Positions 24,862 to 63,600 of a stretch of 64,000 nucleotides of DNA are shown in pieces. The notes under the pieces are model-generated. The model made no database searches and was not told the origin of the DNA. It saw only the letters and a list, made by a program, of their open reading frames with translations. A program made the translations under genes and the position numbers. The stretch is from positions 13,957,196 to 14,021,195 of the forward strand of contig CAIIXF020000004.1 in the NCBI GenBank assembly GCA_903813345.2, read 5' to 3'. This stretch comes from Owenia fusiformis (lineage: Eukaryota > Annelida > Polychaeta > Sabellida > Oweniidae). Every line of letters starts with the position of its first letter. The first letter of the stretch is position 1.

Positions 24862-24970
24862 GATAAAGGGCTCAATGATAGATGAAAGGATAACTGCCAT
24901 TTTTCCATGCCATAGTCCATCACTTCCTTAGATGAGTAGTCTAGGAGTTTTGGGTAGTTAATGCATGTCA
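24862..24970 (-). repeat. Tandem copy of the TRIP12 terminal exon end, past the stop
   Basis: A diverged ~109-bp copy of 24971-25085. It preserves GATAAAGGGCTC...GATGAAAGGA, and the equivalents of the catalytic-Cys codon and the TACTCATCTAA text, with several substitutions and small deletions. Being downstream of the TAG it would be 3' UTR. Confidence 0.85.
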
Positions 24971-24981
24971 GATAAAGGGCT

Positions 24982-27900
24982 CTATGACAGATGAAAGGAC
25001 AACTGCCCTTCTTTCCATGCTAAAGTCAGTTTTTCTTTCATTACATCTTTAGATGAGTAGTCCGGGAGTTTTAGGTAGTTGACACATGTCATAACTGAAG
25101 GTAAGAAGTCATCAGCATTCTCGTTTCCTTCCACGGGTTTCCTTACTATAGTCAGCGGGGGTGTAAGACTCTTGAATCCTGGAAATAATTTCCTTGATTA
25201 AAAACTATATTCAAAAATAATTTATCTGTAAAACCTGTCTTGTAATCTGAGCAAAAACTGCTTTTGAATATTAAAGAGGAGACCAATTGTCGTCAACAAT
25301 AAAGTTGGAGACTATTACAATATGTTGTGGTGGTGACATAACAGAACTCAGTCAATCAGTGATCTACCCATGATTTTTTCTCAGATTGGTGCAAAATTCT
25401 CATTTTCACAATGTAGACCAAAATTGATCAAAATATGCCAATTTTCATGATTTTTCTCATTTTCAAGTGTGTGCAAATGGATTAAGAGGTGGGTGCAAGC
25501 CTATTTTCAAAATCTCAGGTGGGTGCTGCACCCTTTGAACAATGGGGTTTCTTCTCTTAGTGTAATTAAATTAAGCTGTTTGTAACAAAAGATTCTGGGG
25601 TCCATTTTTGGAACCGTTGTAACTTACGATTTGGTCATGAGTCATTGTTTGTCAAAAGGTAGACAACGGTTTTTCTCGGAATCGTAACTCACGATAGTAC
25701 CTAATAAACGGACCCCGGTATAATAAAGAACAAATTGTATATACCTGAGATTTTGAAACTTTTTATTGTCATTTGGAAAACCAGAGAAAAATAAAACATC
25801 TCCAACCAAATTCTCACCTCCAACTGGTAACCGAGGCGACCCAGTTACAAACTGCAAAAATCCCCGCTGTTCCTCTGGTGTCATTTCCGTCAATATCTCA
25901 TAGAGGAATTTGACAGCTTGACTGTCATGATTGAAGCCATGGTCCGGCCGACATGACTCCATAAGCATTTTAATGTCCCATTTCTCTTCTTTTGAGCCAC
26001 AGAAAAGCTGCTCTAGCTCCTCTGGATAGAAACTCAAAAGGTGTTTCACAGGGAAGATACACTCAAAGCCTTCTAGGAAGGACTCAAACTGCTTGGAGAC
26101 CCCTTCTACTAATGTCCAATGCACAACCAACTGAAATGAAAATGCATGTACGAATCAACAGGATTTCATAATTTTGTATTTATGTGCTGATGGACATATA
26201 AGGCCATATTAAATAAATATATGTTTAACATCCTCTATGATCCTAAGGTTGATATTTTTCAGAAAAGTTTGATCCTAATGACAATTGTAGCTTAAAAATT
26301 GTAATTTCATATGAGAAGAGTTTTTGGATTGAAAACTCTGTAGTGAGTTGACACTGAGCAGCCATATTTTTTGTCAGATTTCCAATGAAGAAAAAGACCA
26401 TCGGGAATTTTGATCAGTCTTGTTAAGTTTATTCAAAACATGAAAAGAGGCTCCTATCATTATGAATGTTTCAATCACTATGGCAACGATAAACAACATC
26501 AAAGGTCTGAAAGTGGACCCAACAGGACTCAGAGATTTATCAGGTTATCACAAATAGTACTACAGGCTTAGTGACCTAAAAAAGTACTGTGTAAAAATAC
26601 CAGTCATTGAGTTAACTAAAAACTCGCAGACTCGAACACAAAAGCTGCACCTACCCGTAGATACTCCTCCAGATTGTCTAAAGTTACTGCTATATCTCTG
26701 CCTCCTTTCTTCAGCTCTAAGTTAGTGCTTCCCACCGACAGTGTGAAGTCTAAAGCGAGATCATCCACGCTACACCCATCTACTGTAAGATTCTGCATTG
26801 CTAACTCTCTGCTTACTTCAGTCTGTAACAAACCAAACGGGGTATTAATATGCAAAATGTCACTCCCTGCCATTTGTCACAGATGCAAACGCTGAACACC
26901 AAATGCCAAACGCCGAATGCCATCACAAAAAAGTTGGAAATGAGACCACAGCAGTATATAACCACTTTTGGTGGTGACATAGTAAGATAGAAGCTTATAT
27001 GTGTAAGAATACAATTTTAAGGGACAAAGTCCATGAAGCGCAACTAACAGGACATGGTCCATTCAATACAGCCTGACAACATTCCAATACTAATTGATTC
27101 CAACTGATTAAGTTAATAAAATAATTTTCCAAAAATAATTGAAGTGAATATTAGAAGTGTTTTTAGAAAGTGAAATCAAATATTTTCAAGACCCATGCAT
27201 GAAACAAAATGTTGATATTTGTTCGCTGGAAAACATACAATACTTACATGTGACTTATCGCTTTCTATGAACTTTTTCTGTCGTACCACTTCTTCTAATT
27301 GGTAGAAAGATTTGGCAAGTACGGGGTCTACATATTGTAAGTCACGGGAACAAAGCATGGACTCTTGTCCTAGCAGCCACTTGTAGAAGGCTTGACTAAG
27401 TGGGATATCAATCTGAAATAAATGACATCAGATAAGGGGGGATAACATATAGTAAATAAAACATGGAGCATCGGATAAGTGGGGATTATGCTTAGTAAAC
27501 ATGGAACATCAGATAGGTGGGGATTACTAGAGGTGTCAAGTATTAACCGGTTAACCGCCGATAATGCCTTGACCGGTCTGAGTTTTTATGGGCGGTTAGT
27601 TGACCGTGTATAATTCTGTTATTTCCTGCGCTTATTTTGAATGCTAATCCGTTTGGTTTTATGGTGTCAGTTTCACGTAAGCTACTCATACATGTCATAA
27701 GTCCCATAACTCCTTACAAACATCCAATCAGCAACTTTAATCCCTGCCACATTGCTTTCCCGCGCTTACTTTGCATTTTAATCTGTTTGTTTTTCAAGCG
27801 TCAGTTTCATGTGAGCTACTCATACATGTGATAGGTCCGATAATTCCTTACAAACATCCAATCAGCAACTTTAATCCCTGCCACATTGCTTTCCCGCGCT

Positions 27901-30513
27901 TACTTACATAGAATAGCGTAAAGCTTGACGAACGTAAAAAATAAACGCCGATATATAATTTTTCCAATTTTTTTCAACTTTCAAGATCGAAGATGAAGAT
28001 TTCATTTGAAATTATAAGTTCAAATTTCCCGCCGGTTAACCGACTTTAACCGGTAAAAACCCCCGGTTAACCGGTTAATGCTCAAGCGGTTAATTGACAC
28101 CACTAGGGATTACACATAGTTAAATAGGGAGCATCGGGAAGTGGGGGATTACACAGTAAAACATGGAGTGTCGGATAAGTGGGGATCACACATAGTAAAA
28201 CATGGAGCATCAGATAGGTGGGGATTACACATAGTAAAATAGGGATCATCAAATAACAGTTTTCATATGTTGTGTCACAAATTATGAAACAAGCGTTACA
28301 TAATTTGGGGTCATATATTATAAATCATGGGCCATAAGGATTCATTTTCAGCCATACTTTCTAAAAGATAACACAAACTAATAATAGCAGCCAACAAAGA
28401 ATTAAACCAGTATTTGTAAAATGAAAATGAGTTGAGGAAGTTTAAAGAAAGTGTTTTCCAGGCAACTCTGATCCAAGACAGCTTGGGTGAGGCTTAACCT
28501 TGGTGAGAACTATTAGGTGACACATTAATGTTCTAAACTTACCATTCTCGAGTCCATGAGGGATTTGGCAACAAACTTTCCCATAAACTTGAATTTATTG
28601 CGAACTTTGGTGACGTGAGCTGTTTTAGCATTCCTTCCCAATGGCTGGGGAAAGAGACCAGGGGCAGAGTGCATATACAGTACCCCTTCGCTACCTACAA
28701 AAATATGACAAACATTTAAACAAGGCATTAACATGCAAAGGATAACCACTTGCCATTTGTTACAGATGTTGAACACCAAACGCCAAACAACATCTATCAA
28801 ACGCCGAACACTGTCCACAAAAAAGTTGAAGACCAAATTTATGGTAATGCAATACATTATCAGGGTATGTTACAGAGAAATGTTTATGTATTGATGTACA
28901 CATTTCTTGTCACGGTAAAAGATGTAAAATTCACTTCAGTTTTATGTCTACTTTGCTTAATTGATTTGCAAATTCTTTACTTAATAATATGTGTAGTTAA
29001 CAAAATCCCTGCGCTACCCCCATAAATGTGGGGTTGATTTTCCAAATTATCCACCCAAATACTTGTTTATTGTAATCTTGGGGTTTTATTTTGTTTGACA
29101 CAAAGCTGAATTTTTTCTAAATAACCACTAATCCGGCTTACTTTCAACAAGATTTCAATACATAGGTCACGGGGGCAATTTGGAAAATCAACCCCACATT
29201 TATGGAGGTACCCTGTACAGAGGCCACATGTACCTTTAGAGTCCTTGAGCTGAATCTTTTCACCACGCCACATCTCTAAATCAGCACGTTGTAGCTCTAG
29301 GGAGACAAGAGCGTAGAATTCTAGTGTTGGACCTAAACCTGTTCCTACTTCTGTCTCGTATTGAATCTCCAACAGAGCCTTGGAGGAACCCAAGTCTTCC
29401 ATGACCTTTTCTGCTTGTTTCAGTAGATCTTCACGAGATACCATCCTCTGAGAAAGTAAAATAGATGATATAAGCATATAGAGGGTTATAGTTAGCTAGT
29501 TATCTGGTTATAGTGGGTGATGAAACTTGACAAGAGACCCAATTCGCCAGGGATAATTTAAAACCATGAATAGAAACTTTGACGCTCTAATTTCCCTCAA
29601 TCACAAAGGGACACAATCTGTCAGACTGATATTAACTTATGGAGTTACATAAGTAGCTGGGACAAGCATATCAGCTTTCACTTTTTCAAGAAACTAAAAA
29701 AGGCTTCAATCAATCCCCTTCTCCCTATTCATTAAACCTTGAAGTTTAAGATTTACCTAAATGATTTTTAGGTTACAATGATCAAAAGAAATGTAGGATA
29801 TGTAAATAATAAACCTCTGGAGTACATACCTTCCTCCTATCAAGGCGAGGAGCCACACGGTCAGAGCCCTCTGTGTTTGTGGCAGGTTCTGCTGAGCCAT
29901 CCTGAAGACGCATCATGGCACGGTCACGGTCAAATGATGTTGCATAGAACAGTAGCTGCCTTGTGTCAAATGGTAGCAGAAATGGACTGGAATGAAAGAA
30001 AATAGTCATGTGATCCTTTAATCTTCAAAAGTCACATGACCGCTGTCTACTGATGTATCAACCACAATTTTTACCATCTCTACCTCTTAAAAAGTGAAAT
30101 AACTAAAAACATTTTGAAATGGAACCAAATTACAAATGTACACTTCAAATAAACTATTTAATAACAAAACTGATATCTAATCTAGTTTTAAACAATTGAT
30201 AACATAAATAGAGTACCAATGCATATAAACAACAAGTACAACATGAAACCAGAGAATAGAGTATCTAGAAACTGATATCTAATCTATTTCTAAAAAATGA
30301 TAATATAAATGTAGTACCGATGCAAAAAAGTACAACATCGAACTAGAGAATTGGGTATCTAGAAACTGACCAGGTTCTTGCTACTTCAGCCAACCAGGAA
30401 GGGAGGTTACCAGTCATGATAACGAGAGGATCTTGAAGCTGTCTATTGGCTTTGGCTGCTAGTTTACTGCTGACATATTCTACACTGGAGAGCACAGCTT
30501 GGTATGTTGAGCA
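24982..30513 (-). CDS. TRIP12: TRIP12 pre-HECT and HECT catalytic exons
   Basis: Eight exons, residues about 1699-2200. [16 protein letters not shown] and [18 protein letters not shown] mark the pre-HECT part; the HECT N-lobe has [19 protein letters not shown], and the C-lobe exon carries [13 protein letters not shown] with the catalytic Cys at codon 25086-25084 (residue 2167, 33 residues before the stop). The protein ends in QLSFHLS, nearly the same as human TRIP12. The TAG stop is at 24984-24982. The first exon of the block (30513-30371) uses a GTCAGT donor and has four further upstream copies of its acceptor. Confidence 0.95.
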
Positions 30514-33500
30514 CTGCAAAAAGAGCACAATATATTCAGTGTTGCATGGCATATTGGCTGCTAGTTTACTGCTGACATATTCTACACTGGAGAGCACAGC
30601 TTGATATGTTGAGCACTGCAAAAAGAACACAATATATTCAGTGTTGCATGGCATATTGGCTGCTAGTTTACTGCTGACATATTCTACACTGGAGAGCACA
30701 GCTTGATATGTTGAGCACTGCAAAAAGAACACAATATATTCAGTGTTGCATGGCATATTGGCTGCTAGTTTACTGCTGACATATTCTACACTGGAGAGCA
30801 CAGCTTGATATGTTGAGCACTACAAAAAGAGCACAATATATTCAGTGTTGCATGGCATATTGGCTGCTAGTTTACTGCTGACATATTCTACACTGGAGAG
30901 CACAGCTTGATATGTTGAGCACTGCAAAAAGAGCATAAATGATATAAACTCAACGAGTTCACATGTCTCAAACTCACAAACTCATGGTTACGACACAGCA
31001 CCTAGCTTGGTTTGTTCAGCATTCTAAAACATCTTTTGTCAAGTACAAGCCCCTATGATCTCCCCAGGGCATTTGAGTGCTGTATTCAAGCGAGATTTTG
31101 AAAATGACGTGTACCCACTTAAATAGAGAAAATTGGTTTGTTTGACCAATTTTGGGAGGCGTTGTTAAACGTTTGACCCAAGAAGAACCCCAAACTTTGT
31201 AATTTGATAGTTTCATAAAAAACTGGTATGTTTGACCAATTTTGTAGTGAAACTTTCGACCAGAGAACACCAAATTTTGTTATTTGATTGTTTTGTATTC
31301 TATTTAGGTTACATACCTGATAAAGGCTACCCCAATGTCTGTTGAGAGCATGGATGACACGTAGCAATGCAAGCACGTCGACAGATGGATCCTTGCCACA
31401 GAACGTAGGGGGCAGCACAGGCACCAGATAGCCCTCTAGTGGTGAAACTATAGGGGGACACAGACCATCTGAAAACAAATTCAACAACATCATAGATTTT
31501 GTTAAAAAGAAGATATTTTCATGCAATATGTTAGATGTTCAAGTTTTCAAAAAGTAATGACAAGAAAAAAAGAATTCCAGTAAATAACCAATATGTATTT
31601 TTAAGCAGCTTATCACATGTATCAAATCTTTTTCAAAATGCGTTCTAAAATTAGCAGATTAAAAGTCAATCCAAAGACATGTAATATGCAGTAGGTACCT
31701 GTCCAGAGTTCATCTTTTTTACTTTTTGGCGCAGCTTTTGTCTTTGTCTCTGATTTGCTTTTCTTAGGACTTGCACCCATGGCCTGCTCTCTCTCTGCTT
31801 CTGGTGCTGGTTTGTACCTTAAATGTGAATCAATATGAGAAAATGTGAAACAAAATGTGAAAGAATGTCTTAGAAGCTACATCCATGGCACAATCTCTTA
31901 ATATTCACTGTTTTTGGTATATAATGTGCCGATTCAAAACAATTTTTTCCAAAATTAATTTAATCGTAAGCTAAAACCCCCAAAAATCAATAGAGCAGAA
32001 GAACACTCCGAGAATTAACAGTTTAAGACAGGGCATTGACAACACAAAGTAAAACAACTGTAACACTATGTCACTATTTCATAAATATTTACCATATTGT
32101 GTGAGATTGTACCCATATGTCTGCATTACCCAATGGGTTCTCTGTGTCTGTGTCAGTCTCATGGCCAGTGTCATGCGAAGTACTGTATTGCTTAACAGCC
32201 TGGTATACTGTCATATTGTAGGGTATCACATGATCTCCTAAAATATGGGAAACATATGTGAATCAATTTGTAAGATATGTGAATCAATGGGAAAGAAATG
32301 TGAATTAAAGAGGAAAATGTGAATCAATGGGACCGGAGAGAAATGTGAATTATCTGAAACGAAATGACTAAAATATGTAAATCAATGGGATAAATGCAAA
32401 GGTATCCCATACTTAAGGACATTGAAATTGTCATCTTTAACACAGTCACTATTGTCAATATTATCACAGTTTTGTCCAAAAATGGAATTTTCACTGCAGA
32501 GAAAATGGGTTGTCAAGTCGGTGCGAGCCTATTTCTGAACTCTCACGGAGGACCAAAGCACTACAAAGGTGGAAGGATAACCGATTTGTGTTAATTGTTT
32601 ACCTATGAGGAACTGCAATTTGTGTTTCGCTGTGCCTTGTGTTATAAAGACTGCAGCCATAGTGTCATCAATGTCATCATCGCTGTTGTCATCATCATCA
32701 CTTATATCATCAGCATCCTAGAAAAACAAGATTAAAGATTTATGAAAAGGAGTACATTAATAAATGAGCCTCGCCATAGGAAAACCGGTCTTATCACAAA
32801 AATTTAAATTGTGCTACAGAACCAAAAATGTGCCCAAGATTAAGAGGAAAATGTGCTAAATTCAAATCCACCTTTTTGGTCTATATAAGCAAGGAAAAAT
32901 TGTTAAGACACAAGCCATGGCTCATTTGAAAGGTCTCTTTGTGCTTTTTAATAAAAACAAAAAATCAAAACATTGAAAAAATCTGTGATAAGACCCCCTT
33001 TCCTGTGGCCTGGCTCAAATATGGTACCATAAATATCACACAAAATTGAGCAATAAAAGAGCAAAATTGCCACCACAAAATTAAAGCCTCTGTCACATTT
33101 GCTAGCTCTACCCAACTGTAGTTTCACAAAATCCATATAGAAAATCCACATCGTACTGCTTATCCCCGTACAATTGCCGTAGTACAAATGTGACTGAGGC
33201 ATTACATGTACACAGCATACCCAAAATCAGATGGCGCATTACCACATTAGGTGGAGACATAAAATCCGTTTCTGTCAACTACAATACTTAACATTAGACT
33301 AAGGATCAAGCTAAATACAAGCAAAAAAAATCCAGATAAAATGAGTGGTACTCACTGATGTGCTATTGTTTTTGATGCGACCGAATCCCCTCATAACAAG
33401 GTACCTCTCTATTGCTTGGGTGAGAGCAAGTGGATCTATTTTCACTGGACCACCTCTCCACTGCCGTAGATTTCTGCACTCAGGGTGACGTTGTAAATGG

Positions 33501-36500
33501 CACTGAAATATAAAAGGAGTATGATACATGCAAGTGGTGGTGAATAAAAGATATTGCAGACTGAATATAGTACCAATGTTATATTAATGATCAAATGCAT
33601 TTTTAGTATTAGGCCTAATGATCAAATGCATTTTTATTATTAATGATCAAATGCAATTTTAGTATTAATAATCAAATGCAATTTTAGTATTAATAATCAA
33701 ATGCATTTTTAGTATTAATGATCAAATGCATTTTAGTATTAATGATCTAATTCATTTTTAGTATTAATGATCAAATTCATTTTTAGTATCAATGATCAAA
33801 TGCATTTTTAGTTCAGTAATACATAATTAAAAGTTATATATTAGCTCCAATATCAATGTGCAGGTACAAATATTGTTCATTAAGGTAAGAGCGTGATGCA
33901 ATATTATGGACGGAACTAAAATTATGTACGAGAGATATTTAATTATTTAAAAATTGTTTTCAGAATTGTATTTATTGTTGTTCCAAGGTGGAAACAGTAA
34001 AAAAAACAAAAATTATTCCAAAAAAGAAAAGTTAGTGGATCCAAAATCTGAAAACCTGGTGAACACAAAAAGGACTATTTTCTCTGGCCTTACCTTAAGC
34101 TGGTGAGTATTGAAGAAACGTAAAGCATTAGAGCCTCGTCCAGTGCTTGCTGTGCCTCCTGGCAGATCATGGACTTTAACTTGGAACTGGAATAGAGAGA
34201 TATATTTGGGGGTTATGTTAAGGGAGGTTTCACAATGAGGTTTTCAGGACACCAATTTCCAGGTTTGTTTTCTTATTTCAATCAAGACCCAGAGCACTGT
34301 AGCAAGTTGAAACAATGCATCTCAGAAAATTATTATTTGATCAAACAACAAGTAAGGGGACTTGTTCCATTTTGCCCTGATTGAAACCTATGAACTATCT
34401 GTATGGTCGAATATTTATTGATTCCTGGTACATGACATGAAACTCTATCACAACATACTTCCCAAAGTTGAATGAGCCTTGGCCAAAATATTTGTATTTG
34501 AAGAACCATTGCTTTGGTTCATATTTACCTGTTCCAGTTGGTGAACACATCCAAGTAGTTTACTGACTAGTTGTGCTATGTGGGGTGGTACAGACATGTC
34601 TAATTCTATCACAGCAGCAGTATCTGGACTCTACAAGAAATGGGAAAATGTGAAACATGTAAGATATGTGAAACAAATGAGGAAATGTGAAACAAAATGT
34701 GAATTTTTATTTGAATTTGTCTATAGGTATTGCACTTTTAAATCAGATGATTGGCAACGATGAAGAAAAAACTAAATATTTCAAAATATATATTTTACAG
34801 GTAACTTATCTTGAGAGACCAACACTGCCCAGTAAAGTGATCTAGAAATAAACCTAGAGCAGTTGGCATGGAAATGGGGTTTGAACAATTGGCATCCCAT
34901 AAATAAATATAAAACTTTAAATTCTGAAAACAAACTAAGCCACTCACAGGGCAATTCAGGAAGACATGTAGAAATCTGCGTAATCTCAGCTCTCGTTGAC
35001 TACAGTCCTCTGTCAAATATGCCAGTAATTTCCGTACAAGATTACTATGGATTACTTCAAATGGGGAAACATCACTCTTCTTTAGTATAGAGGCCATTGT
35101 TTCAAGGGCTTCCAACTCATTCTCCTGCAAAAATACATTGAAAACTGAACAAATGGACAGTGAATATTTCAATTGAGTGTTTTTTCAAATGGGGAAACAT
35201 CACTCTTCTTTAGTATAGAGGCCATTGTTTCGAGGGCTTCCAACTCATTCTCCTGCAAAATACATTGAAAATTTAACAAATGGACAGTGAATATTTCAAT
35301 TGAGTGTTTTTTCAAATGGGGAAACATCACTCTTCTTTAGTATAGAGGCCATTGTTTCAAGGGCTTCCAACTCATTCTCCTGCAAAATACATTGAAAATT
35401 TAACAAATGGACAGTGAATATTTCAATTGAGTGTTTTTTCAAATGGGGAAACATCACTCTTCTTTAGGATAGAGGCCATTGTTTCGAGGGCTTCCAACTC
35501 ATTCTCCTGCAAAATACATTGAAAATTTAACATATTGTAACATGGTCATTTTCACATTGTTTATATTTCTACAATTCATATTGACCAATCCCCATCCATG
35601 TCATTTTAACAGGTCCCTTCATTACTTTACACCAGTTTCAAATATTTAATTCCAATGTTTTCATTTCTTTTGTATACTTTCTACTCTAGTTTCCTTTGTT
35701 TAAACCAGTTTTTTAGCTTTTCATGGTGTGATGGTTTCATACTGTTTTTGTATTCCATATAATGGCATTCACTCACATGTAACTGAGTTTGGGTGTTGTC
35801 TTTACTTGTTAGTGTTGCCTAGAGTTTGTAACTGTTATACACAGAGTATTTCAAATAGATATTTTAGAAGACATTTTAACTACATTTCTACTGTTATATT
35901 TGATTGCCACCCACGGGCCTCCAATCGCCCCGTTACAATATGGACAGTGAATATTGTCCCAGTATTTTTGTCCTGGTAGCGTTCAGTTACATTGTTATTT
36001 AATATGGCTTAGGAATCAACAAACTCGGTGATAATATTCCCAGGGGGGATGGGGACAATAGCAAAGAGGGGCAATATTCGGGCAATTTAGAAAATAATAT
36101 TGTCCTAGTATTTATTCTCCTGGTACAAACACAATTACATTGTGACATTGTTCAGTCTGCAAATAATAATTTTGGGGCCTAAACAAAATAAAATAGGACA
36201 ATATTAAACATTGAACTTTCTTTAGAAACAAGATGACATGTTAATAACAAATTAGTTGCTATGAAACATACCTCTTTTTCTAACATAGTGGTTGCAGCAG
36301 AAAGTCTGTTAAGTACATCCAATGCAGGGTTAGTGGAGCCTTGTTTCTCTATGTTGCTATCTCCATGTTCCTTCTCAAACTTAATAGCTATAACAAAACA
36401 GAATATGGTTTAAATACTATCTTCATGATGATAATGATTTTTTGCCGGCAATTGAAGATGGCCAAAGATGCTTGTACCATATCCAAAGATGCTTCAAGTA

Positions 36501-39500
36501 ATTTGACTGGTATATCTTGAGCCATCTTCAAAACATTTTCAGTTATTGTTCATCAGTGCTTCACAATGCTTATTGCTGATTTCACAATGCTTATTGCTGA
36601 TTTCACAATGCTTATTGCTGATTTCCAAACTTCATGTTGAAGTCCATTATCAAACACTTTACTTTATATTTTTATCTCATCACTGGTATTATATTTATTA
36701 TGTATATGAAAATAGGGTCCCAATGCACCTGTTGGTCTGGAAAAACAAAATTGTCCGCACAAACAAATCTTAAGGAGGACTAATAATAATTGTTATTATT
36801 ACCCTGATCTTTGATCCAGGAGCGAACCTTCTCTTTGTTGTTAGACAAAGGACCACTGTTGTTACGCACCAGACATGTCTCATGCTGAAAAACAAACAAA
36901 TAGTCATGACCTTATTTGCTTATTAACTCAAAATAATTCTATTTCATGTAAATTTGATTGAACATGTGATAACAATTAAGCATATTGTATATGTGTGCCT
37001 TAAAAACAAGGGGACATGTTTTAAACAAATATATATCAGTGATCTCCCCCAGCAAGTCGGCGCATCACCCACCTGTGATTTTAAGAACAGGCTTGCACCC
37101 ACCTGAAAATCCATTTTCACCCGCTTGAATTAGCCATATCTTGACCAAATGGTTTAAATTGTGAGATTCGGAATTTTGCACCCACTTCAGATAAAATCCT
37201 GGGGAGATCACTGTATACACAAAAACTATTCTGAAAGTTGGGGATGGGCAAACTTGGTACAGAGACTTGACCTGACAATGTGCAGCCAGCGTGAGTGGTG
37301 GAGTCATTCTATTCATAAAAAATAAATATTAGCTTGAACAAATCCATTAAGAAGGAATACTTACATGCGGTTTAGGAGGTGGTTTCTCTGACGTAGACGA
37401 CCTTCCCCACCTAGAAGGGTTTAGACTGGACAGGAAGGATGCCCTTGGACTAGCACTGGAACTACTTTTACTTGAGTCTTTACCTAGAAAGTTAATAACA
37501 CTGGTTTACAAACTTTAAATCAAATCAGATTTCCTATCTGTGCACCAAACAATCAATTCACAAAATTAATTATGGACATTATATCTGCACTAATTCTACT
37601 TGTATCATCAGAGAAGTGTAAAATACTGGAACTACTTTATTTGCATCTTTACATAAGGTAATGTGACATATTTTTTATTTGACGAGCTAACGCTATCCAC
37701 TAACCTAGTGATTTTCCGCGACTAACGGGGGTTGACTTGGATGGAGCACCTGATTTGGGCAGATCAGAAGGGGCCTCTGTTGCACCTTTACTCGTCTTGC
37801 GTGTTGACACTCTCTTGGGAGCTTTTTTCCTCTTTAGGACATCACTCAACCTCCTGAAATATAGAGCAGTTTAAATTGTTTGAGATGCTTTAAGTAGCTG
37901 ACAATCATGTTTGGGTAACCCTCTGCAACAGCCAGAATACAAATTTAGTAAATAAGTTTTTTAATCTAAAGTTCAACTAATCAAAATTATCATATTAAAA
38001 TAAGGGTTCTGGACTCACATCTGACTTGTTTAATTTAAAGTTCAACCAGAACAACAGCAACGCCAAAGCGTAGCGAATCCCATCGAACATTTTTCAAAAG
38101 GGGCACCTTCTACCAAAAGTGTCATTAGACAGTACAGTGTGCCATGCTTATAATATTCACATACCAAATATGAACAAAATCGCTCTACTACTTTTCGAGT
38201 TATAGTAAAATACGTTAAAATGGTGGCCATTTTGAAAAATGGCCGTCTTCTACCAAAAGTCTCATTAGACAGTGTGAAATGCTTATAGTATTCACATACC
38301 AAATATGAACAAAATCGCTCCACTACTTTTCGAGTTATAGTAAAATACGTTAAAATTGCGGCCATTTTGAAAAAAATGGCCGCCTTCTACCAAAAGTGTC
38401 ATTAGAATGTGTGCCATGGTTATACGTATTCACGTACCAAATATGAACAAAATTGCTCCACTACTTTTCCAGTTATAGTAAAATAAGTTAAAATGGCAGC
38501 CATTTTTCAAAATGTCCACCATTTTTCAAAATGGCCGCCCGCCTTCTACCAAAAGTGTTATTAGACAGTGTGCCATGCTAAAAGTATTCACATACCAAAT
38601 ATGAACAAAATCGCTCCACTACTTTTCGAGTTATAGTAAAATACGTTAAAATGGCGGCCATTTTGAAAAATGACCGCCCTCTACCAAAAGTGTCATTAGA
38701 CAGTGTGCCATGCGTATACGTATTCACATACCAAATATGAACAAAATCGCTCCACTACTTTTCGAGTTTTAGTAAAATAAGTTCAAAATGGCAGCCATTT
38801 TTCAAATTGTCCGCCATTTTTCAAATTGTCCGCCATTTTTCAAAATGGCCGCCATTTTTCAAAATGGCCGCCTTCTACCAAAAGTGTCATAAGACAGTGT
38901 GCCATGCTTATAGTATTCACATACCAAATATGAACAAAATCGCTCCACTACTTTTCGAGTTACAGCAAAAATCGTAAAATAACGAGTAAAGGCCGCCATT
39001 TTTCAAGATGGCTGCCATGTGCTTTTTTAATATCTACATTTATAGCTTTATTAATGTCCTATATAATTTTTTTTACATTTTAAACATATTGCTATTACAG
39101 TTTTACATATTGCACCTAAATTACTGTAAAATCGGCACTAAAATGGCCGCCATTTATAAATGAGCGGCCATTTTGATAATCGGCTTTCGAGCAGAACTTC
39201 TATCCCCATAGGGTATATGTGTACAAAATATGAATAAAATCGGGCCAATGGTATTTGAGTTATTGCCCGGACGGACGTACGTACGTACGTACGTACGGAG
39301 GCGTTCCCTATATCCCTCCGAACTTCGTTCGATGGGATAACTAATCAAAATTATCATATTAAAATAAGGGTTCTGGACTCACATCTGACATCTGCTTGTC
39401 AACTAATCAAAATTATCATATTAAATTAGTTGTGGACTTACATCTGACTTGGGCTTGCATTACGTCCTGAATCAGCACTCCCGCCAGGTGGCGCTGGTGT

Positions 39501-42500
39501 CGTGAGACTTGTCGACGATGCACTCCCAAGACTGGTCTGCGAAGAGGACCGTTCCGGTGAGCTCTGATTTAGGCTACTACTACTGCTACTTGATGCATCT
39601 TTAGATGCTCCTGCTACTGCCTTCTTTGGTGAAGTATCCGCTATTTCAACTTCACTAAGACGTTTGATCTGATGCATAACACCTAGAGAGAAAAAGATGC
39701 ATGTAGATATAGAGGTTCTTGTATAAATACATGTTTAATTAAGAGTAAAACTGCATATTGGTGATTGTGACTTTATTAAGCAGGGCTGCATAAGAATATC
39801 ATATCAGAAATTAAGCTCAATCGTAGTCTTGGAAGTTTATGGACCCCTTCTGCAATTTATCTTGAGTTGTATGGACTGTCTCTATAGGCAAAGGTACCAT
39901 CAAATCAATAATAACAAGGCATTAACATGCAAAATGTCACCACCATTTGTTACGGACGCCAACCACCGATCAGCATAAGCACATTCTTGCTAAATAAAAT
40001 GTATGTAGTTGCATACGATGAAAAGGTCTTACCTTCTCTTCTGAAGAATACACTGAAAATATCTGGTAGCTTTCCCATAAGGATGTAGGACATTTGTAGG
40101 GCACCAACTACAACCTTAAGGTCATGGGAGGCCATCATAGATGCAATATGACTGAAAATGTGAAACAATAGCTTTTGTGCAAAGTACTAATGATCAACAT
40201 GCATACATTGAGTTTCTGAAACAATATTGGTCTTCTTAGTATCAGTATATATAAAAAAAAAAGATGACATGACTGTGAAGATTATTTCTGAAAATATAAA
40301 ACATTAAGGATTAAAAATCAGTTACCTTGATACTGCATGTTGCTTGAGAACACTTTGTAGGAGATCTGGGTTTGCAAAGTAGACCATTCGCAAGATAGCT
40401 TGAAGACATTTATGCCTCACCGATGGACCAGCCTGAAATGTGTTCAAGCAAAATGTGAAAGTCAGCAGCAAAATGAGAAAATATGACACAAAATATGAAA
40501 ATGAGCAGCAAAATGAAAAATGTGAAACATGATGTGGAAATGGTAAAATCATTTTTCTTCCAAGAACTTAATATCAGAGGAGAATATTTTTCAAATTACA
40601 GTTGTCAAATTACAGTTGTCAAATTAAAGATGGAATAAAATCAAAACGTTAAGAGTTTTGAAACACCAAATATGAAAAGAAATCTATTTCTCTGACTATT
40701 ACTTACAGAGGAGCTGTATACTTCATATAGAACACCAAACAGAGACTGAATAAACGAGGAAGCCAATTCAGTCTTCTCTGCCAATACTTCCGCTCTCGAG
40801 TCACTCCTGGTCACCGATGCAGTTGCTATAGAAACAAGACAAAGTGTATTGATATAGTTGCTATAGAAACAAGATTAAGTTTTAATATTCAACCATGATT
40901 CTAACCTACTATCTAAGACCGCCTCTACCTTTTTAGAAGTTCGGGTAAAAACTGCCAAAAGTGCAAACTGAGAATGTGGGAAATAGTTCCTTGTTTCATA
41001 CATTTTTCTGATATGTGAATATTCTTTATTATACCGAAACATTTTTAAAATTTTGCTCGCGTTTATAGCAAAGTGCTTGTGCACTTACGGTCAAGTGCTT
41101 GTGCACCTGTTGTCAAGTACTTATGTACTTACAGTCAGATTTTGCTGCAAGTGGGTTAGGTTTGCGCTGTACAGGACGTGCAGTGCCACTGTCTTCATTG
41201 ATTTGTTGCATGGAGTGGAAGTCTATAGTGTAGGTCCTTCCCATAGTAGAGAGACATGCTTCATCTTCCCCTCCCTGGTGGGCTGCCTGCAAATATATGG
41301 GAAATGTGAAACAATAGAAAATGTGAAACAATGGAAAATGTGAAACAATGAAAAATGTGAAAGAATGGAAAATGGGAAAAAATGGGAAATAGGAAGAGAT
41401 GAAATGTATGTTGAATGTAAATTATAATCTGAAATGATAAGATTCTCCCCTCGATGTGCTACTTGACAACAAAGAAAGTGTGAGAGAATGAAAAATGTGG
41501 ATAAAAACATTTAGGATAAAGTGAAATAATGAAAAATGTGAAAATATGGTGTGGTTTCTTTCTATGCAGCAGTTCATCCCTGTAAACTCAATGAATACTT
41601 AGATAGATTCTTAACTTAAACACATTCATACCTCGATTATTCTGCTATCAATAGTTGTATATGGGTGCCAGAGTCCTCTATCATCCCTCCATTGCCAAAT
41701 GACAGCATCTGTGTTAACTGTAGGGTGGCGCCTCAGCATGGAGTCAACTGCAAAGATGCCATCTGTGGGAAGCTTGGGCATCAACTCACTGGAAATAGAA
41801 ACAAAAATGTGAAAATGGGAGAAATTAAGATACTAGATGTGAACATTATGAAAAAGGTACAAAAAATTGGAAAATATTAAGGGATAACGTAAATGTGAAA
41901 ATTACAGAGAAAAATGTGAAAAATTATTGCAAGAATACAAGAGAAATATATGCAGTAACATCCATGTAAATCACACCACATAGTTATCTCATCTTTGAAA
42001 TGCAGTGCAAAAATAGAATGTACTTATTGCTAATTTTCAAAGAAATAAATTGATTTGAAATGTGGATGGTTTATATGTGTCTTACCCTATCAAGCAGACA
42101 AGTTCATAAAGCTCCTGTGGAGTTCGGGCCACTAGTTCTATAAGCCCAGTAGATGGCTCTGAGGTCCCCACCAGTAGGAAACACAGTGTGTCTGCTATAT
42201 CTGAAACACCATAGAACAACATGTATCAATATAATGCAGACCTTAACCTTAAGCCTCAACAACATTTACTCTGACGGCTGTACAGCGCCCATAGCTTCAT
42301 GAAATAGTTATCTTTTCAACATTAATCAAATTAATATATCAAACCAGGGAGATATCCAGATAAAAATGTGAAATTACTACTTATTTCATCAATTATTAGT
42401 AAACAAACAATTATCTTTATGAACATTACATAACAATAGACAAGCATAATATTAAAAAATAGAATATGAAACTGATTAGAAAATGTGAAATATTCTTGAA

Positions 42501-45500
42501 AATGTGAAAAATGGGAAATATTTACTTTGTTTGAGTAGGACAACAGCCAGATCGGAGCAGTTGGCACACATGACAGCGAGCATCCTAATGACCATCACAA
42601 ATGTTCCCGTGGGGATCAATGGGGGAGTCACAACCAACTGAAATATGGGAAATGTGAATAAATGTGAAACACAGATAAAGACTGATTTCTCAATTCATTG
42701 AGCAATGTGTAAATGTACGCATATCTAAAATGGCCCTATAAATCAATTCTGAGTATTTTATAGAAAATGTTAACAGATAAAGCATATTGATCCAGAATTT
42801 ATCTCATGAATAGTTATTTCATGTTAAAATGAAAATGAACCCAATTATTATCTACCACTTAAATAGAAAAATTGTACCATTCGCTGGTTCACAGTTCACA
42901 CAGTACAAAAGCATATTTCTCCAAAAACAAGCAAGAACTAGAAACTTCTTGATAAATTGAATTAACTTAAAAATGTGAAACAAATGTGAAAATTAACTCA
43001 CCAGTTGTTGTGTGTTACTGAGTAGTCCATGTGCAGCTATTTCTTTAAGGATCCTCTCATCATGTTGGTAATTCTCAACCAGGCGTGAGAAACACAAACA
43101 AGTACTCTCAACTGACTTCTTGTCCTGAAATGGGAAACAATATTTGAAACAAAATGTGAAACTAAATATGAAAATGTGAAACTTTAGATAATTCTAAAGA
43201 AGAGTAAGAAACACAAAGAAGTACTCTCAACTAATTTCTTGTCCTGAAATGTGAAACAAAATTTGAAACAAAATGTGAATCCAAATATGAAAATGTGAAA
43301 CTTTAGATAATTCTAAAGAAGAGTAAGAACGGTAGTCTAAAGCCATTAAAGAATCAAAAAGTGCTTAGGAACTTATTGAAGCACTGAGTAACTTGATTTT
43401 GTATGTATCCTACACATATGGAGCATTTCTAAAAGTCTTAAGCCAAAAATAATCTGTTAAACTTACTGAAGTATTGACTCTAGCACTGAGTAAAGCGAGA
43501 GATTCCCTAACATAGTGGAACTCGTCTGGGTTGATATTCTGGCAACAATTGGCTGTGATTGCCAGTGCACAACGTTGAGCATTGATGGAGAAGAAATCAA
43601 GAAACATCAGACAAGCTCCTATACCACCCTATAATAATAATAATATCAAGGCATTCAATGGTAAAACATCTACAGCTGTATACAGAGATCATAATACTCT
43701 GACAATTTGTAGTCGAGGAACTTCTCCCACAATAATCTTTGATCATACTATTTAGTTTAAATTTTCAAATAAATTTAGCTATTTAATATAATTTATTCAT
43801 AAATAGTTTAAAATTTTTTTATTTATTTTTTTTATTTCTATATTTAATTTAATATTTTATTTATCTTTCTAATGAAAATAGCCATTTAGTTTAAATTTTC
43901 TTTTGGATTTGTTACAAGTACATAATATTTGGCAACATTGTCTCTAATATTTTCTCATGTCAATTTTTATTATCATTTCTTCAAGATGTAACACCATATA
44001 AAACTTCAATGAAACTAACTAATATTTCATAGCTAAAGTCACCCAATAATTTTAATCAAGAGTCATATAAATGTGTAGATAGTAACTACATACTGCATGT
44101 AAGATGGCTTTGCAGTGTCTCCGTGACAACATCTCTAATGCTGTGAGGGCTTGTTCAGCAACATCCATGCACTGGATGACTTGAAGCTGAAACACAAACA
44201 TTCATGATTCAATAGTGTCTCCTTAGCAACAACATCCATGCACTGGATGACTTGTTGCTAAAACACAAAACATTCATGATACAATACTTAGTGTCTCCGT
44301 GACAACATCTCTAATGCTGTGAGGGCTTGTTCAGCAATATCCATGCATTGAATAAAATTGTAGCTAAAACACAAAACATTCATGATACAATACTTAGTGT
44401 CTCCGTGACAACATCTCTAATGCTGTGAGGGCTTGTTCAGCAACATCCATGCACTGGATGACTTGAAGCTGAAACACAAAACATTCATGATACAATAGTG
44501 TCTCCTTAACAACAACATCCATGCACTGGATGACTTGTAGCTAAAACACATAACATTCATGATACAATAGTGTCTCCTTGACAACATCATTAATGCTGTG
44601 GGGGCTGAATCTTTGAATAAAAGGACACATGGCTTAATCGTACATTGAATAAAATTGATGCTGTTATCACTGATATCGTGCTTTTCCGAGTTTAAAATTT
44701 TTGATTTATGTGGTTACCTTTTCAAGAAAGACTGGCACCGCATCCACTACAACAGCAGATGACCTAGGCAAAGCTTCCATCATATATGTCAGTGCCCGAC
44801 ACGCATGGTTCATCATGTCAAAATTATGCTCCATGCGGAGTAGGGATATCAACGCCGGAACTACTTGTTTTATTGGGAATCCAGCTAGAGTGTCCTCGTT
44901 ACCCATGACGAGTAGTTGACACATCTCTATGACTGAGGTCAACTGAGAGCCTTCGTCTCCAGTGGATTGTATACCAGTCAATAGTTGTTGGGCTTTATTC
45001 ACTGAAATGAAAATGCACACTTAAATAAGCGAATGTTACAACACATGAAAAAAGGTAGTATTTAATTTTGTGATCTGAAGTTAGGCCAAGGAAAATTAGT
45101 GACTGCATTATGGATTGGAGGACTGGAATAAGGCCAAGGAAAATAAGTGACGGTATTGAATTATGAACTATAGGACTAGGATACTTGCCTTTGATATTGA
45201 AAAACAGGTATAAAAATAACTTCCCAATCACAGTGAGTATATAGGAATAAAACATAACTCTTTTATTAACACAGTACTTCAATGTAAGAAATAAATTTTC
45301 GTTATTCAAGTGTATGTGTATTTATTTAAACAAAATATTGTAATATAAAGTTGATGTTCACATACTTGTACCACCGCTCATGGACCTGTGAAGCAGCTGA
45401 TGCATTCTGGGACCAAGAGCCCCAAAAAGATGTGATGGCAGACCACGTGCCTCAAGTAGAGCCTGTAGTCTTCCTACATCTGAGTCCATTTCTCCGTCAG

Positions 45501-48840: not shown

Positions 48841-48841
48841 T

Positions 48842-50100: not shown

Positions 50101-50103
50101 AGC

Positions 50104-57724: not shown

Positions 57725-58179
57725 AAACCATCCTTTACATCTCTTAATACATAGTCAATGTAAACCATTTATACAACAATTCATAAGAGATGTTTATGTT
57801 AAAAAAACATGGCTAAAGTAAAATTGGACGGATCATAGGAATGTCAACAATTATTTTGCTGTATGAAATGCATGATGGTGTAAAATAAAAACTTTCAATG
57901 ATTAATTAAATTTTAGTTTTTAGTTTTTTAGTTTTTTAATCCTTCAATAAATATAACTTATTGTATGATTGGTGACTGGCAGCAGGTTACATCCTTTAGT
58001 ATAAATCTAGATGACCAGCAGATTTTTTTTGCTATTTTGAATTCACAATGAGGCACTTAGTTCAACTGCTTCTGGATACATGTACTATAATTTGTAATTC
58101 ATGTAATTAATTCAAGAATGATTTGTCTCTGTAATAATTAAAACTTTTTTACTACTTAATCTTACTACTTAATTCCTAT

Positions 58180-58395
58180 GTTTTACAGTCACTGAGGCTA
58201 CAGAAATATCCAGGCTAAAGAACCATCAGGCTACAGAAACATAAATATAGAATTGTTGAGGATACAGAAACATTGAGGCTATAGAGCCATTGAGGCTACT
58301 GAAAGATTAAGGCTATAGAGCCATTGAGGCTAGATACAGAAACATTGAGGCTATAGAGCCATTGAGGCTACATAAACATTGAGGTTATATTATAA
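58180..58395 (+). repeat. GAGGCTA minisatellite
   Basis: Irregular ~20-bp units such as CATTGAGGCTATAGAGC and CATTGAGGCTACAGAAA. Confidence 0.8.
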
Positions 58396-58469
58396 ACATA
58401 AATATGCTATATTGGAACCAAAATAAATCCCTAAACAGTTTAATAATTATATTAACACAACTTGGTTGC

Positions 58470-58700
58470 AGAGTTATCACAGTCAGTGGCAGATTCTATC
58501 ATATTATCTTCAAGTATGCAATATGTAAACATGAATGATATATGTAATATTTTATGTTTCTCTTAAAGGGGCACCAAAGACTAGAGCAATGGCAGATTCA
58601 ATCATATTATATTCTTGTATGCAATATGTAAACATGAATGATATATGTAATATTTCATATTTCCCCTAAAGGGGCACCAAAGACTAGAGCAATGCAAATG
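58470..58700 (+). repeat. ~114-bp tandem duplication
   Basis: GGCAGATTCTATCATATTAT...AAAGGGGCACCAAAGACTAG occurs twice in succession with few changes. Confidence 0.85.
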
Positions 58701-60493
58701 TTTCCATTTGAAGTTATTGAAAATATAAGATGAGACATGTCCAAACCTTATTTGAACTAAAAAGTGGAAATAAATCCTTAGCTTGTCTCTAGTCTTTAAT
58801 GCAACTTTCATATACACTTTAACAAGTATTTCTTACAACTTTTTTATTCAATCTGAATATAAACAGCAGAGCTCCTATGGAATATTTTCCAATTTATCAT
58901 TGATTTCCTCATTTTCAATGCACTCTTAGATTTTAATCAATGGAGATTTTGCAAATACTTTTTCATGGACCAATAAACCAAACTCATTTGTAAATATCAA
59001 AATTATTTTGATTTCCAAGGAATAAATCCTTCAAAATCCTTGGAGTCTTTGAGAATATTTTGATAAATGAGGGCATTCTTTTACACTAATAAATAACAAT
59101 TGCCGGAATCCTTTTTTACTGAGCATTGTAGAACAATCATTCTCGAATTCTTACTTTCAATTAAAACTTTAACTTTAAAACTAAAGTTAAGACAATATAC
59201 TTATTTTTGTGAAGTGCTTAATATTCCAGATGGAGCAATGGCGGACATCTTCATAAAGCATTGAATTTAATATACATGTAGTTTAAAATCAAACAATGGA
59301 GATAATTCAATACCATACTGCTTTACTTATATTATATTCCTTTACAGCAACATGGGATTGTAAACTAGCCTCTTGTTTTATGGCAACATTGTCTTTAACA
59401 TCTATCCTATCATATCAAACAATTATATCTAGAATATATAGAAACAATTCAAACTTACAAATACCATATTCTCTCTAATGGGCGCATAGTTCCAATGAGC
59501 GCAGATGGGACTTTAATGATGAATATGATCTCAAGAAAACACAAAGTTTATGCATTAGTTTCAATTATTTACACAACAAGATATCAATTCATGATTATAT
59601 GTAATGCAGAGAAAGAAATATAGGAGCTGTAGTATGTAAACCTTAGAGATAACAACCAAAAAGATTAATCAATATTTTTTTTCTGAAATTTCTGCATGTG
59701 CGCTTATTGAAATCTTTGAATATTTTACCCTTTTAAATTTAACTTTGGGGAGTACACTCAATAGAGAGAATATGGTAATTTCAATGTTCAAAACATGGAC
59801 ATCATACCCATGTTAAAAACATTTAATCTCATTCTATGTACAGTTCTTTTCAGCGTTAAAATCATGGCTGAGAATATAAATTTTCCTTCTCATTTGGTGT
59901 AATGCATTTAGTACTGTATTTGTTTTAATGTTACACAAGCTTTTATTTAGCTGATTTTATTGAGTTTGAAATTTTTGCCCAAAACCCTGAAGAATAATAG
60001 TGTATGTAATGGCACTAATACTTATAGAACAATAATATGATACAGTCTCAACTTTTGCCATCTTCCAAAAAATTTCAGGGGAGTTCACAGAATTTGACAA
60101 TTTTTGCCCAAAATCACTTGGAAATTGATCAGAACGGTGGAAAACTGCATAATTTTGAAAGATTTATTGACCAGTGCATTGTTCGCTTGAACCACCCAAA
60201 CCCCCTGACTATGGGCCTGTGATATTTTATGTGTTTTGGGTCTAAATATATGTTTTTATGGCTTCCTAATTAATACTGATTCCCTGACAGCCCATTTCTG
60301 ACTTTTATATCATATTGGTTTGGGCCTAGGTTTCTTTGCTTTATATCAGTAATGCTAAAATTCACCAACTAAATAGGCATAAAAATGAATTTAAATAATG
60401 CCAAATTAATAACAAATACAGTTGGCTCATCTGTTGAGTCCTAATGTTTGTTGATGTGTCACATGCTCAATAAGGCGGAAAGTTTTGTATCAA

Positions 60494-60562
60494 GTTGATC
60501 AATAAGTTCTTGAAAAGGCTCTGATATGAAGACAGACTTTTTCTCGTAACTTATTGATCAAC
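60494..60562 (-). other. Hairpin just past the FBXO36 stop codon
   Basis: Perfect 15-bp inverted repeat, GTTGATCAATAAGTT at 60494-60508 and its complement at 60548-60562, with a 39-nt loop. It starts about 42 nt after the stop codon, so it would lie in the FBXO36 3' UTR. Function is unknown; it may be a remnant of an inverted-repeat element. Confidence 0.7.
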
Positions 60563-60603
60563 CTGGTATGTACAATATGGAGATTTTTTCGATTGGGGAC
60601 ATT

Positions 60604-63600
60604 TTATTCATCAGTGTTTTCCGTCATGAAAGCCTCTTCTGGTACAAGTCCCTCCCCTTTTTCTGATAATTTACGCTTCCTTGCTTGTCTTCTTAACTGA
60701 ACCTGAAAATATAATGATCCCATTTTTGATAGTCGTTTGATACTAGTTTGGTCTATGTTATTCATAGAAAAACAATTATCTGATAACAATTGAACTATAC
60801 ATGAACCGATTTACAAACTTGAAATTTTGATAGAGAATTTTGCAATTTAAATGGGTTTCCCTAATAGGGTCAAACACTTTCGATAAAAATAATTTTGAAT
60901 AAATATACTGATAATTTGACAGGGTCTGATTTACTAACCTGAAGTTGTAGTTTGTTTGTAAAGAAAAGTTTTTTCCAGCCTTCTTTTTCTGCCAAGTCCC
61001 GTAACTCATCTGTTACTGGAGTTTCACTACTATCAATGTAGATCTTTTCCCATAATTCATTACTGCTACAAAGCTAAAAATTTAAAAATTCATAATATTA
61101 CATGATAACATGGGAATATATACAGCTAAATAAATGACAATTTATTTGTTTTATTTTATTTTTTTGTGGAAACTATAACAGGGAGATTATTGGAGCCCTG
61201 TGTAATTCAAAAAACAGGAAAGGAAACAGAAAAGGCTTGTAACTCTACTTACTTATGTCCACTTACTTTCAGTCCCTCCTACTTACATCTGTGTCCCCCT
61301 CTTTCATCCCACACCACCCTACTTACAGTCACCCAAGTCACAGTCCCCTCCGCATACTTCCAAATCTCTATAACAGTCACAATCTCCCCCACTTCGATCA
61401 CCCCTAGTTAAACCCCTACTTACATTTGCACCCCTCCCCTTCCCATGCCCAAACCCCCTACTTGAATCCCCAATCACTCCTACTTACATTTGCACCCCTC
61501 CCACTCACATCCCCAATCCCCTACTTAGATCCCCAATCACCCCTACTTACATTTGCACACCTCCCCTCTCACTTACATCCCCAATCCCCCTACTTAAATC
61601 CCCAATCACTCCTACTTACATTTGCACCTTCGTACTTAAATCCCCAATCACCCCTACTTATATTTCCAACCCGCCCCCTCTTCCACTTATATCCTTAATC
61701 CCCCTACTTGAATCCCCAATCACCCCAACTTACATTTGCACCCCTCCCCATCCCACTTACATCCCCATCCCCCTACCTAAATCCCCAATCACCCCTACTT
61801 ACAGTTGCACCCCTCCCCTCCCACCCCAATCCCCCGACTTGAATCCCCAATCACTCCTACTTACATTTGCATCCCTTCCACTTACATCCCCAATCTCCCT
61901 ACTAAAATCCCCAATCACCCCTACTTACATCTGCACCCTCCCTCTTCCGCTTACATCCCCAATCTCCCTACTTAAATCCCCAATCACCCCTACTTACATT
62001 TGCACCCTCCCTCTTCCGCTTACATCCCCAATCTCCCTACTTAAATCCCCAATCACCCCTACTTACATCTGCACCCTCCCTCTTCCGCTTACATCCCCAA
62101 TCTCCCTACTTAAATCCCCAATCACCCCTACTTGCATTTGCACCTCTTCTTCTTCCGCTTACATCCCCAATCTCCCTACTTAAATCCCCAATCACCCCTA
62201 CTTACATTTGCACCTCTTCTTCTTCCGCTTACATCACCAATCTCCAATAGTACATCGCTAATCACTCCTACTTACAGTTGCATCCTTCCCTCTTACATCC
62301 CCCTCCCTCTTACTTACATCCCAAACCTCCAATACTTACATCTCTAAAATGTTTGGAGACCTGTGCCAGATGAGCAATATCTTCTAACTCTAGGAAGCGA
62401 ATGATTCTCAATGCTATGTCATTCTCTAGTCTGGGCAGATAGTCTAGGCGTCCTTGTGTTATCCCATGTACATACTCAACCATGCCCTTGCCAAACACCC
62501 TGTGGATCTCACCTATAATGCATTTATTACATACAATATAATGCATTTATTACAAACGATATAATGCATTTATTACATATGATATAATGCATTTATTACA
62601 TACGATATAATGCATTTATTACATACGATATAATGCATTTATTACATATGCATTTATTACAAACGATATCATGCATTTACATTTGATATAATGCATTTAT
62701 CACATGATATAATGCATTAATTACATATGGTATAATGAATTCATTACAAACTTTTTGGAACTTAAACACTTTTATCAAAATTTCTACTCAACAAAAATTT
62801 GAACATATGATGATCCTTAATACATAACAGTGACTCACAGTATATTCATTTCAAATAAAGAGATCCTCACTCAAAATTATAAAATATTACAAATTCTTCC
62901 AAATACACTTAGCCTACTGATAGATATTCATATTTTATTCCATAATACTACTGTTTTCCCAGGGAAATATGAAGGAATAAAAATCGTATTGAATCGTGTT
63001 ACATGAAAAAATCGTATTGTCCCCGGGAAAAAAATCGTATTGATGCGTATCACATGAAAAAATCGTATTGTCCACGGGAAAAAAATCGTATTGGAACGTA
63101 CTAACCTATTTTTGGTTTTCCTGTTATTTTTAACCTTACCTAATTGATAAAAGCATTTTCAAAATGTAACATTTTAGTGGAATGTATTATGGAATAAATA
63201 GGTTATTTCTGGTCGGGATTGAATATGGGTTTCATTCCTCGGAAAATATGATATTGACCTTGGGAAATATCATATTGACACTCGGTCGCTGCGCTCCCTC
63301 GGTCAATATCATATAACCCTTCGGTCAATATCATATTGTCCCTCGGAATAAAACCCATATTCAATCCTTCCCAGTAAATAACCTATATATATTTAATGAT
63401 ACGAGAAATATCGTTCAGCTTTTCAATGATATTTAGCACTGCAATGATATCTATAGCTCCTTCAGTTTGATATTTTTGAAGAAAAAAAAATTAAACAGCC
63501 ATCTAGTTATTGATTAAAATTTATTAAATTTTCCCATGTAGGCTATACATGACAATATTCAGCTATAAAATGGCAATGTCAAAATCAAAATTCAAAACGA

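Follow-up and report, generated by a model that had tools for sequence, protein, structure and literature searches.

The 64,000 nt window analyzed here, from the polychaete Owenia fusiformis (assembly GCA_903813345.2, contig CAIIXF020000004.1, positions 13,957,196–14,021,195), contains the genes TRIP12 and FBXO36 and raises the question of why tandem arrays lie so often at, or across, their exon-intron junctions. Our analyses indicate that these arrays are probably mirages, the name given in amphioxus to exon/intron boundaries, 5′ or 3′, that have been tandemly duplicated in the manner of a minisatellite (PMC3087553, PMC3902484; available excerpts), and that they arose by ordinary local tandem duplication and minisatellite turnover, being tolerated if the exon-proximal splice site is used; this leaves unexplained an excess of arrays at junctions. 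The observed basis of this reading is the straddling geometry of the arrays, the intact splice sites in their additional copies (decoys, hereafter), the similar numbers of donors and acceptors affected, the occurrence in several unrelated genes, and the excess among strong arrays. From the analysis we also infer that splicing proceeds normally in spite of the decoys.

We placed 33 TRIP12 exons (numbered 3–35; E3–E35) on the minus strand, using the human protein and reading of the sequence; at first placement AG and GT were found at all except exons 3 and 35, of which the former was moved 2 nt afterwards and the latter terminates at the stop codon. The 32 introns have a median length of 374 bp, and the FBXO36 exons occupy 60.7–63.8 kb on the same strand, which is also that of all the arrays described below in window coordinates. 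The introns preceding E5, E7, E20, and E28 contain upstream copies of the intron tail, the AG and the initial 37–73 nt of the exon, confirming what a sequence-only reading had proposed for the acceptors at 44186, 43124, 35124, and 30513. The E5 array (44114–44595; its low edge was set by reading, while that from Tandem Repeats Finder, TRF, is 44230) repeats the first ~73 nt of the exon in several upstream copies, with three decoys that could be aligned besides other copies with internal deletions. The E7 array (43088–43329) consists of two copies of a 119 bp unit, with about 82–84 nt of intron and 35–37 nt of exon. Copies are 98% similar in the arrays at E20 (35056–35532; 127 bp × 3.7) and E28 (30452–30935; 102 bp × 4.7, with four decoy acceptors). 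A small duplication at the E12 acceptor (40825; 40821–40873, with an offset of 35 bp) was found by reading and is outside the TRF list.

The first copy of the E20 array is interrupted by an insertion (35531–35942, no strand assigned) with 20-nt inverted ends that are 80% complementary, and its upstream edge probably continues around 35955, past the insertion. For the upstream portion that this copy lacks, a match of 16 nt was found at 35955, and only 0.5% of 396 control fragments do as well. We considered filler DNA in this unit as a signature of repair and rejected it, because the match at 35955 and the intervening inverted-repeat insertion make filler unnecessary.

Donors are duplicated in the same manner, and the arrays claimed on the donor side at 39442, 30371, and FBXO36 62340 were all recovered. 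At E15 (donor 39442) the donor and a first copy at +59 nt, identified by reading, span 39345–39451, and a third copy is found at +1423 nt, near 38020, past a repeat element with units of 135 bp. This dispersed element (~135 bp units with AAAATGGCGGCCATTTT-like ends) occupies 38042–39200, between the duplicated E15 donors, and occurs also at 21506–22478 and in three of the loci sampled elsewhere (L012, L014, and L006; see below). The FBXO36 array (donor 62340; 61240–62345) extends over 1.1 kb with 21 GTAAGT motifs in the sense strand and none in the antisense strand (for comparison, the TRIP12 sense strand contains 0.5 per kb), while the array following exon 28 (donor 30371; 30167–30369, 94 bp × 2.1) has its edge 1–2 bp inside the intron. 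An array at the E11 donor (41133; 41071–41137, 22 bp × 3), which spans the donor by 5 nt according to TRF, was an addition to those listed by the sequence-only reading, as were the E12 acceptor duplication and the arrays in the pyrimidine tracts of E11, E13, E21, E25, and E26 that are described below.

Outside the window we sampled 29 stretches of the same genome (290 kb) at 20 loci (L001–L020), of which 15 are of dynein heavy chains and five are HECT loci. Combining reading and TRF, we tallied 20 straddling arrays, nine at acceptors (E5, E7, E12, E20, E28, two in L008, L009, and L014) and 11 at donors (E11, E15, FBXO36, two in L002, L006, L008, two in L009, L013, and L018). Those in L002 (2), L006, L008, L009 (2), L013, L014, and L018 were confirmed by reading, with the L013 donor lying where the retrieved sequence ends and its exon out of view, whereas TRF position and unit sequence were used to identify the second donor array of L009 and, in L008, the pair near 11,000. 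The exonic overhang, measured in 12 of the 20 arrays, ranges from 3 to 119 bp, and its ratio to unit length fits a uniform distribution (Kolmogorov–Smirnov p = 0.34, n = 12), with overhangs of 5 bp or less in two of the 12 (1.1 expected); therefore, offsets differ among arrays and the breakpoints are not clustered at the splice site. Only three of the 12 measured arrays have units divisible by three.

The splice dinucleotides of the decoys are largely intact. An AG was found in all 12 decoy acceptors aligned from the five TRIP12 arrays (E5, E7, E12, E20, and E28) and a GT in all 27 decoy donors aligned from E11, E15, L002 (two arrays), L009, and L018, as well as in eight of the 12 from FBXO36, although these counts took only copies similar enough to align and are thus biased upward; L013 and L004 were omitted from them, as the donors called there were either mistaken or insufficiently strong. 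At E5, E7, E28, L002, L009, and L018, some decoys score at least as high as the real site and, therefore, the choice of site at these places would have to depend on position and not on strength.

Two further TRF arrays in the sampled loci, in L002 (11397–13170, 91 bp × 19.5) and L008 (18258–18464, 110 bp × 1.9; joined coordinates in both cases), have units resembling an acceptor plus coding sequence and are candidate junctions that we did not count. Likewise, similar 17-bp acceptor-like minisatellites (about TGTTCCACTTACAGAG) occur in L004 (131–175), L009 (7021–7056), L015 (9395–9443), and L020 (2980–3012), and an apparently TGTTCCACTTACAGAG-like motif is present in the opposite orientation in L006 (15757–15910).

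These features can be accommodated in a simple sequence of events. A local duplication would copy a segment of ~20–140 bp that by chance straddles an exon/intron junction, and unequal exchange or slippage would then expand and homogenize the copies as in a minisatellite, with the outermost ones free to drift or to acquire insertions. The outer copies are indeed unlike the inner ones, as seen by the insertion in the first E20 copy and by a second insertion that splits an array before exon 32. The additional copies sit on the intron side, and the mRNA would be normal if the spliceosome paired the exon-proximal donor or acceptor, through nearest-site choice or exon definition. Purifying selection would remove those duplications that repeat or interrupt whole exons, whereas the straddling ones would be tolerated.

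Several observations nevertheless weigh against this proposal. The real site is the strongest one at E11, E12, E15, and E20, where a choice by strength is possible. The E28 array has an open frame across three of its four spacers and, its unit being 102 bp (a multiple of three) with the frame mostly open, the added copies could be translated. Also, upstream of its first copy the E28 array lacks a portion of the unit for which there is no local source, the longest match being 8 nt. Lastly, the excess of arrays at junctions in the sampled loci goes beyond what random duplication and tolerance alone would predict.

For the statistical analysis of this excess, exons in the other loci were identified by similarity to paralogues and by splice-site scores trained on the window, and arrays were called with TRF. 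Automatic calling yielded 211 exons in 20 loci; exons were kept if both site scores were at least 4, and loci with fewer than three passing exons were removed, leaving 19 loci and 149 exons in the final count, a filtering that lowered the expected counts. Donor positions at L013 and L002 were corrected by hand before the final count, no exons were added by hand, and arrays inside exons or beyond the first-to-last exon span were excluded. Two placement nulls were used, with 2000 shuffles (floor p of 0.0005): a unit-length null, where each array is a seed of unit length barred from containing a whole exon or sitting within one, and a whole-array null, where complete arrays are shuffled. In both cases arrays were taken as independent and the annotation is incomplete.

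Among the strong arrays (score of at least 100) of these loci, eight of 20 span a junction, versus 1.9 expected under the unit-length null (4.2-fold; p = 0.0005, the shuffle floor) and 2.8 under the whole-array null (2.9-fold; p = 0.004), six of them at donors and two at acceptors; nine of the 20 are within 15 bp of a junction, versus 2.4 or 3.3 expected. The comparison of arrays with shuffled positions that the sequence-only reading had suggested thus gave a positive result for strong arrays in the sampled loci, and its proposal that exons are merely the places where the origin of a repeat can be recognized does not explain an excess based on TRF calls. The signal was weaker with looser settings, since at the loosest threshold (score of at least 45) eight of 55 arrays span a junction versus 2.9 (unit-length, p = 0.006) or 4.9 (whole-array, p = 0.11). 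Other counts, which still contain one misplaced L013 array, were seven of 35 versus 4.1 (p = 0.09), and six of 16 strong arrays versus 3.1 (p = 0.06), in a first run with 15 loci and unfiltered exons; 10 of 62 versus 4.0, and 10 of 23 strong arrays versus 2.7, with the unfiltered exon set; and, pooling the window and the other loci, 13 of 79 versus 6.9 (p = 0.014), and 12 of 36 strong arrays versus 5.5 (p = 0.003), or about 2-fold; the first run and the unfiltered set also include an L004 array (7909–8123). The L013 donor had been called at 2863, while by reading the real donor is at 2799 and the array lies 17 bp inside the intron, uncounted in the final test; the exon call for the L004 array was too weak and was removed by the site-score filter.

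The excess among strong arrays is what would be expected from a duplication process truly biased to exon-intron junctions, for instance through the repair of breaks that occur close to exon edges in connection with transcription or chromatin, which we consider a real possibility without favoring it. However, the breakpoints are located away from the junction, a longer persistence of arrays could yield an equal excess, the test assumes independence among arrays, and a single family, the dynein heavy chains, makes up 15 of the 20 loci. The junction excess outside the window may stem from mutation being biased in the DNA that flanks exons or from longer persistence of the arrays; likewise, the R-loop or repair-linked bias that had been suggested may be a source of arrays.

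The window itself shows no excess of spanning arrays: these are four of the 24 TRF arrays, compared to 4.1 expected with unit-length seeds and to 6.0 or 9.5 under whole-array nulls. The argument that random tandem duplication would rarely hit junctions this often therefore fails within the window, because the introns are short and the units long. Together with the similar frequency of donors and acceptors and the overhangs compatible with a uniform distribution, this is in agreement with random tandem duplication without any preference for junctions, in which case the shortness of the introns, the length of the units and purifying selection would explain all; yet the excess among independent loci makes it rather unlikely that this is the whole explanation.

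When proximity instead of spanning was considered, 11 window arrays were within 15 bp of a junction versus 5.3 expected with unit-length seeds, and this excess is wholly due to acceptors (nine versus 2.8, with two versus 2.7 for donors); under whole-array nulls, the nine near-acceptor arrays compare to 3.9 expected with constraints and 7.4 without them (p = 0.29). Six of the nine (E7, E11, E13, E21, E25, and E26) contain a common motif family, TTTCACATTT, and the small acceptor-side arrays of TRIP12 are therefore not independent. Members of this family precede the acceptors of E11 (41297–41404, in the pyrimidine tract and 10 bp before the acceptor), E13 (40447–40529), E21 (34638–34696), E25 (32245–32332, with one mismatch or as the shorter form TTCACATT), and E26 (31821–31862). 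The motif occurs in TRIP12 25 times in the sense (minus) strand and none in the antisense strand, in nine of the 32 introns between 31.8 and 43.3 kb, with 18 of the 25 located at 150 nt or less from an acceptor, a zone that represents 31% of intron length; conversely, there are three sense and one antisense occurrences in L001–L020 (200 kb). Allowing one mismatch, there are 46 occurrences in 15.6 kb of TRIP12 introns and 97 in 290 kb of other loci.

This distribution suggests another explanation, that the arrays are retained as splicing regulators and that the TTTCACATTT repeats are clustered binding sites common to several exons of one gene. Proteins of the Nova type have YCAY-like binding sites, and the density of YCAY upstream of acceptors is indeed higher in TRIP12 (2.73 per 100 nt, n = 32) than elsewhere (1.84, n = 121; one-sided Mann–Whitney p = 0.03). 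However, this difference is weak and partly restates the TTTCACATTT motif. Additionally, the doublet TTTCACATTTT-N0-20-TTTCACATTT was found genome-wide 106 times in forward and 104 in reverse (overlaps included), for 3 and 3 with a backwards-read control, so that the motif derives more simply from a minisatellite dispersed in the genome; seven of the 210 matches are in TRIP12, all in the sense strand, among the matches listed, which include the whole of the window's contig. The units of the large arrays also differ from gene to gene. We thus regard regulation as an improbable reason for the arrays as a whole, whereas the presence of TTTCACATTT in many introns of one gene may reflect either a splicing signal that these have in common or the spread of a minisatellite.

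Slippage at the pyrimidine tract, which had been advanced as a starting point for acceptor arrays, would be in line with the nine near-acceptor arrays of the window; nonetheless, six of these belong to one gene-wide motif family, the straddling arrays are as frequent at donors as at acceptors, the excess in the other loci is mostly on the donor side, and the overhangs are broad and unclustered, all of which makes this origin very improbable. Least probable of all is an artefact of assembly, for, although near-identical copies such as those of E20 and E28 can mislead assemblers, point changes and internal deletions set the copies of E5 and E7 apart, some arrays hold inserted elements, straddling arrays recur in unrelated genes, the published O. 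fusiformis assembly, presumably the same as that used here, derives from PacBio reads according to the available text (PMC9977687), and a search of the assembly for the E28 region retrieved no second full-length copy of it.

Other arrays lie near exon ends without straddling a junction. The acceptor-only minisatellite of FBXO36 (acceptor 62512; 62514–62750) was found as predicted, with a 23-bp unit and its end only 1 bp away from the acceptor; the exon is the one that carries the donor-side array. The array before exon 32 (acceptor 27412; 27420–28250, 39-bp unit), split by an inverted-repeat insertion (27532–28101), reaches the acceptor region by reading, whereas the edges assigned by TRF are separated from the nearest junction by 292 and 437 bp. 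Finally, the stop codon of TRIP12 is followed by a degenerate repetition of the end of its coding sequence (24876–24981), with the copy at 24971–24876 showing 50% amino-acid identity to the original. Thus, tandem copies do exist at all the places listed by the sequence-only reading, but the position at 24982 is not a splice junction and the association at 27412 is seen by reading and not by TRF edges.

Three further repeats were seen in the same genome. A dispersed repeat present in 17 places (e.g., C1:25257117–25257257) contains an open frame of 161 amino acids, with an identical score for a HECT-domain fragment in each copy; it may be a mobile element into which a portion of a HECT gene was incorporated. 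In C9:37986009–37994334 a single myosin-head segment (about 27–83 of the profile) is matched 12 times in tandem over 8 kb, which might represent an extensive series of mutually exclusive exons. In L004 (C9:7082562–7087388) one segment of dynein AAA_6 (about 58–160 of the profile) is present three times in less than 5 kb.

Arrays of this type have been described gene by gene in cephalochordates. From the available excerpts, the amphioxus mirages occur in the globin genes BflGb6 and BflGb9, Adh3, troponin C, and PGBD5, with units of about 10–160 bp, copy variation, splice signals retained in many of these and normal splicing backed by reverse transcription-polymerase chain reaction (PMC3087553, PMC3902484), while cluster boundaries escape homogenization (PMC3087553). 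As in amphioxus, the units found here contain the exon/intron boundary of the host gene (by TRF in E7, E20, E28, and E11, and by reading in E5, E12, and E15), both donor and acceptor boundaries are affected, and many copies conserve the splice dinucleotides; at the level of sequence, these arrays are mirages as there defined. The amphioxus cases are supported by complementary DNA and ours derive from genomic sequence; what is new is their occurrence in another lineage, an annelid, in several unrelated genes and with a measured excess at junctions. The assembly also has three matches to the haemoglobin-linker domain Eryth_link_C (best E = 5e-7), which is characteristic of annelids. Similarities to other systems are partial. 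Intron gain by the Rogers model in Drosophila and potato also involves local tandem duplication carrying splice signals, but there a duplicated exon segment with AG/GT creates a new intron (PMC2891723, PMC4974935; available excerpts), whereas in our arrays it is a pre-existing junction that was duplicated, which only lengthens the intron. In introner elements one sequence is inserted at many sites as whole introns; the TTTCACATTT arrays fill just parts of introns and the large arrays have units particular to each gene. The CeRep25B minisatellites of Caenorhabditis elegans are also located in introns near splice decisions and, in the accessible text, are linked to alternative splicing (PMC4039745), although they form a multi-gene family whereas our units derive from the junctions of the host gene itself. 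We found no description of junction-spanning arrays in annelids in the open-licence PubMed Central literature; the nearest case is that of the earthworm metallothionein genes, with repeats of minisatellite size in intron 1 and a duplication of exon 4 that is missing from the final transcript, where the available part of the report does not mention repeats across junctions (PMC12783039).

We advance only tentatively that exon-intron junctions are true hot spots of tandem duplication in this lineage, and that many strong intragenic minisatellites (eight of the 20 sampled) are rows of decoy sites of functional grade. If this is true, these arrays would constitute a genome-wide reservoir for new exons, alternative splice sites and intron growth, beyond cephalochordates, and a confirmation across the genome would turn a curiosity of amphioxus into a more general way for introns to grow and for splice sites to be duplicated. 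They would also offer a natural experiment, in which the spliceosome chooses one among up to 11 near-identical sites (L009).

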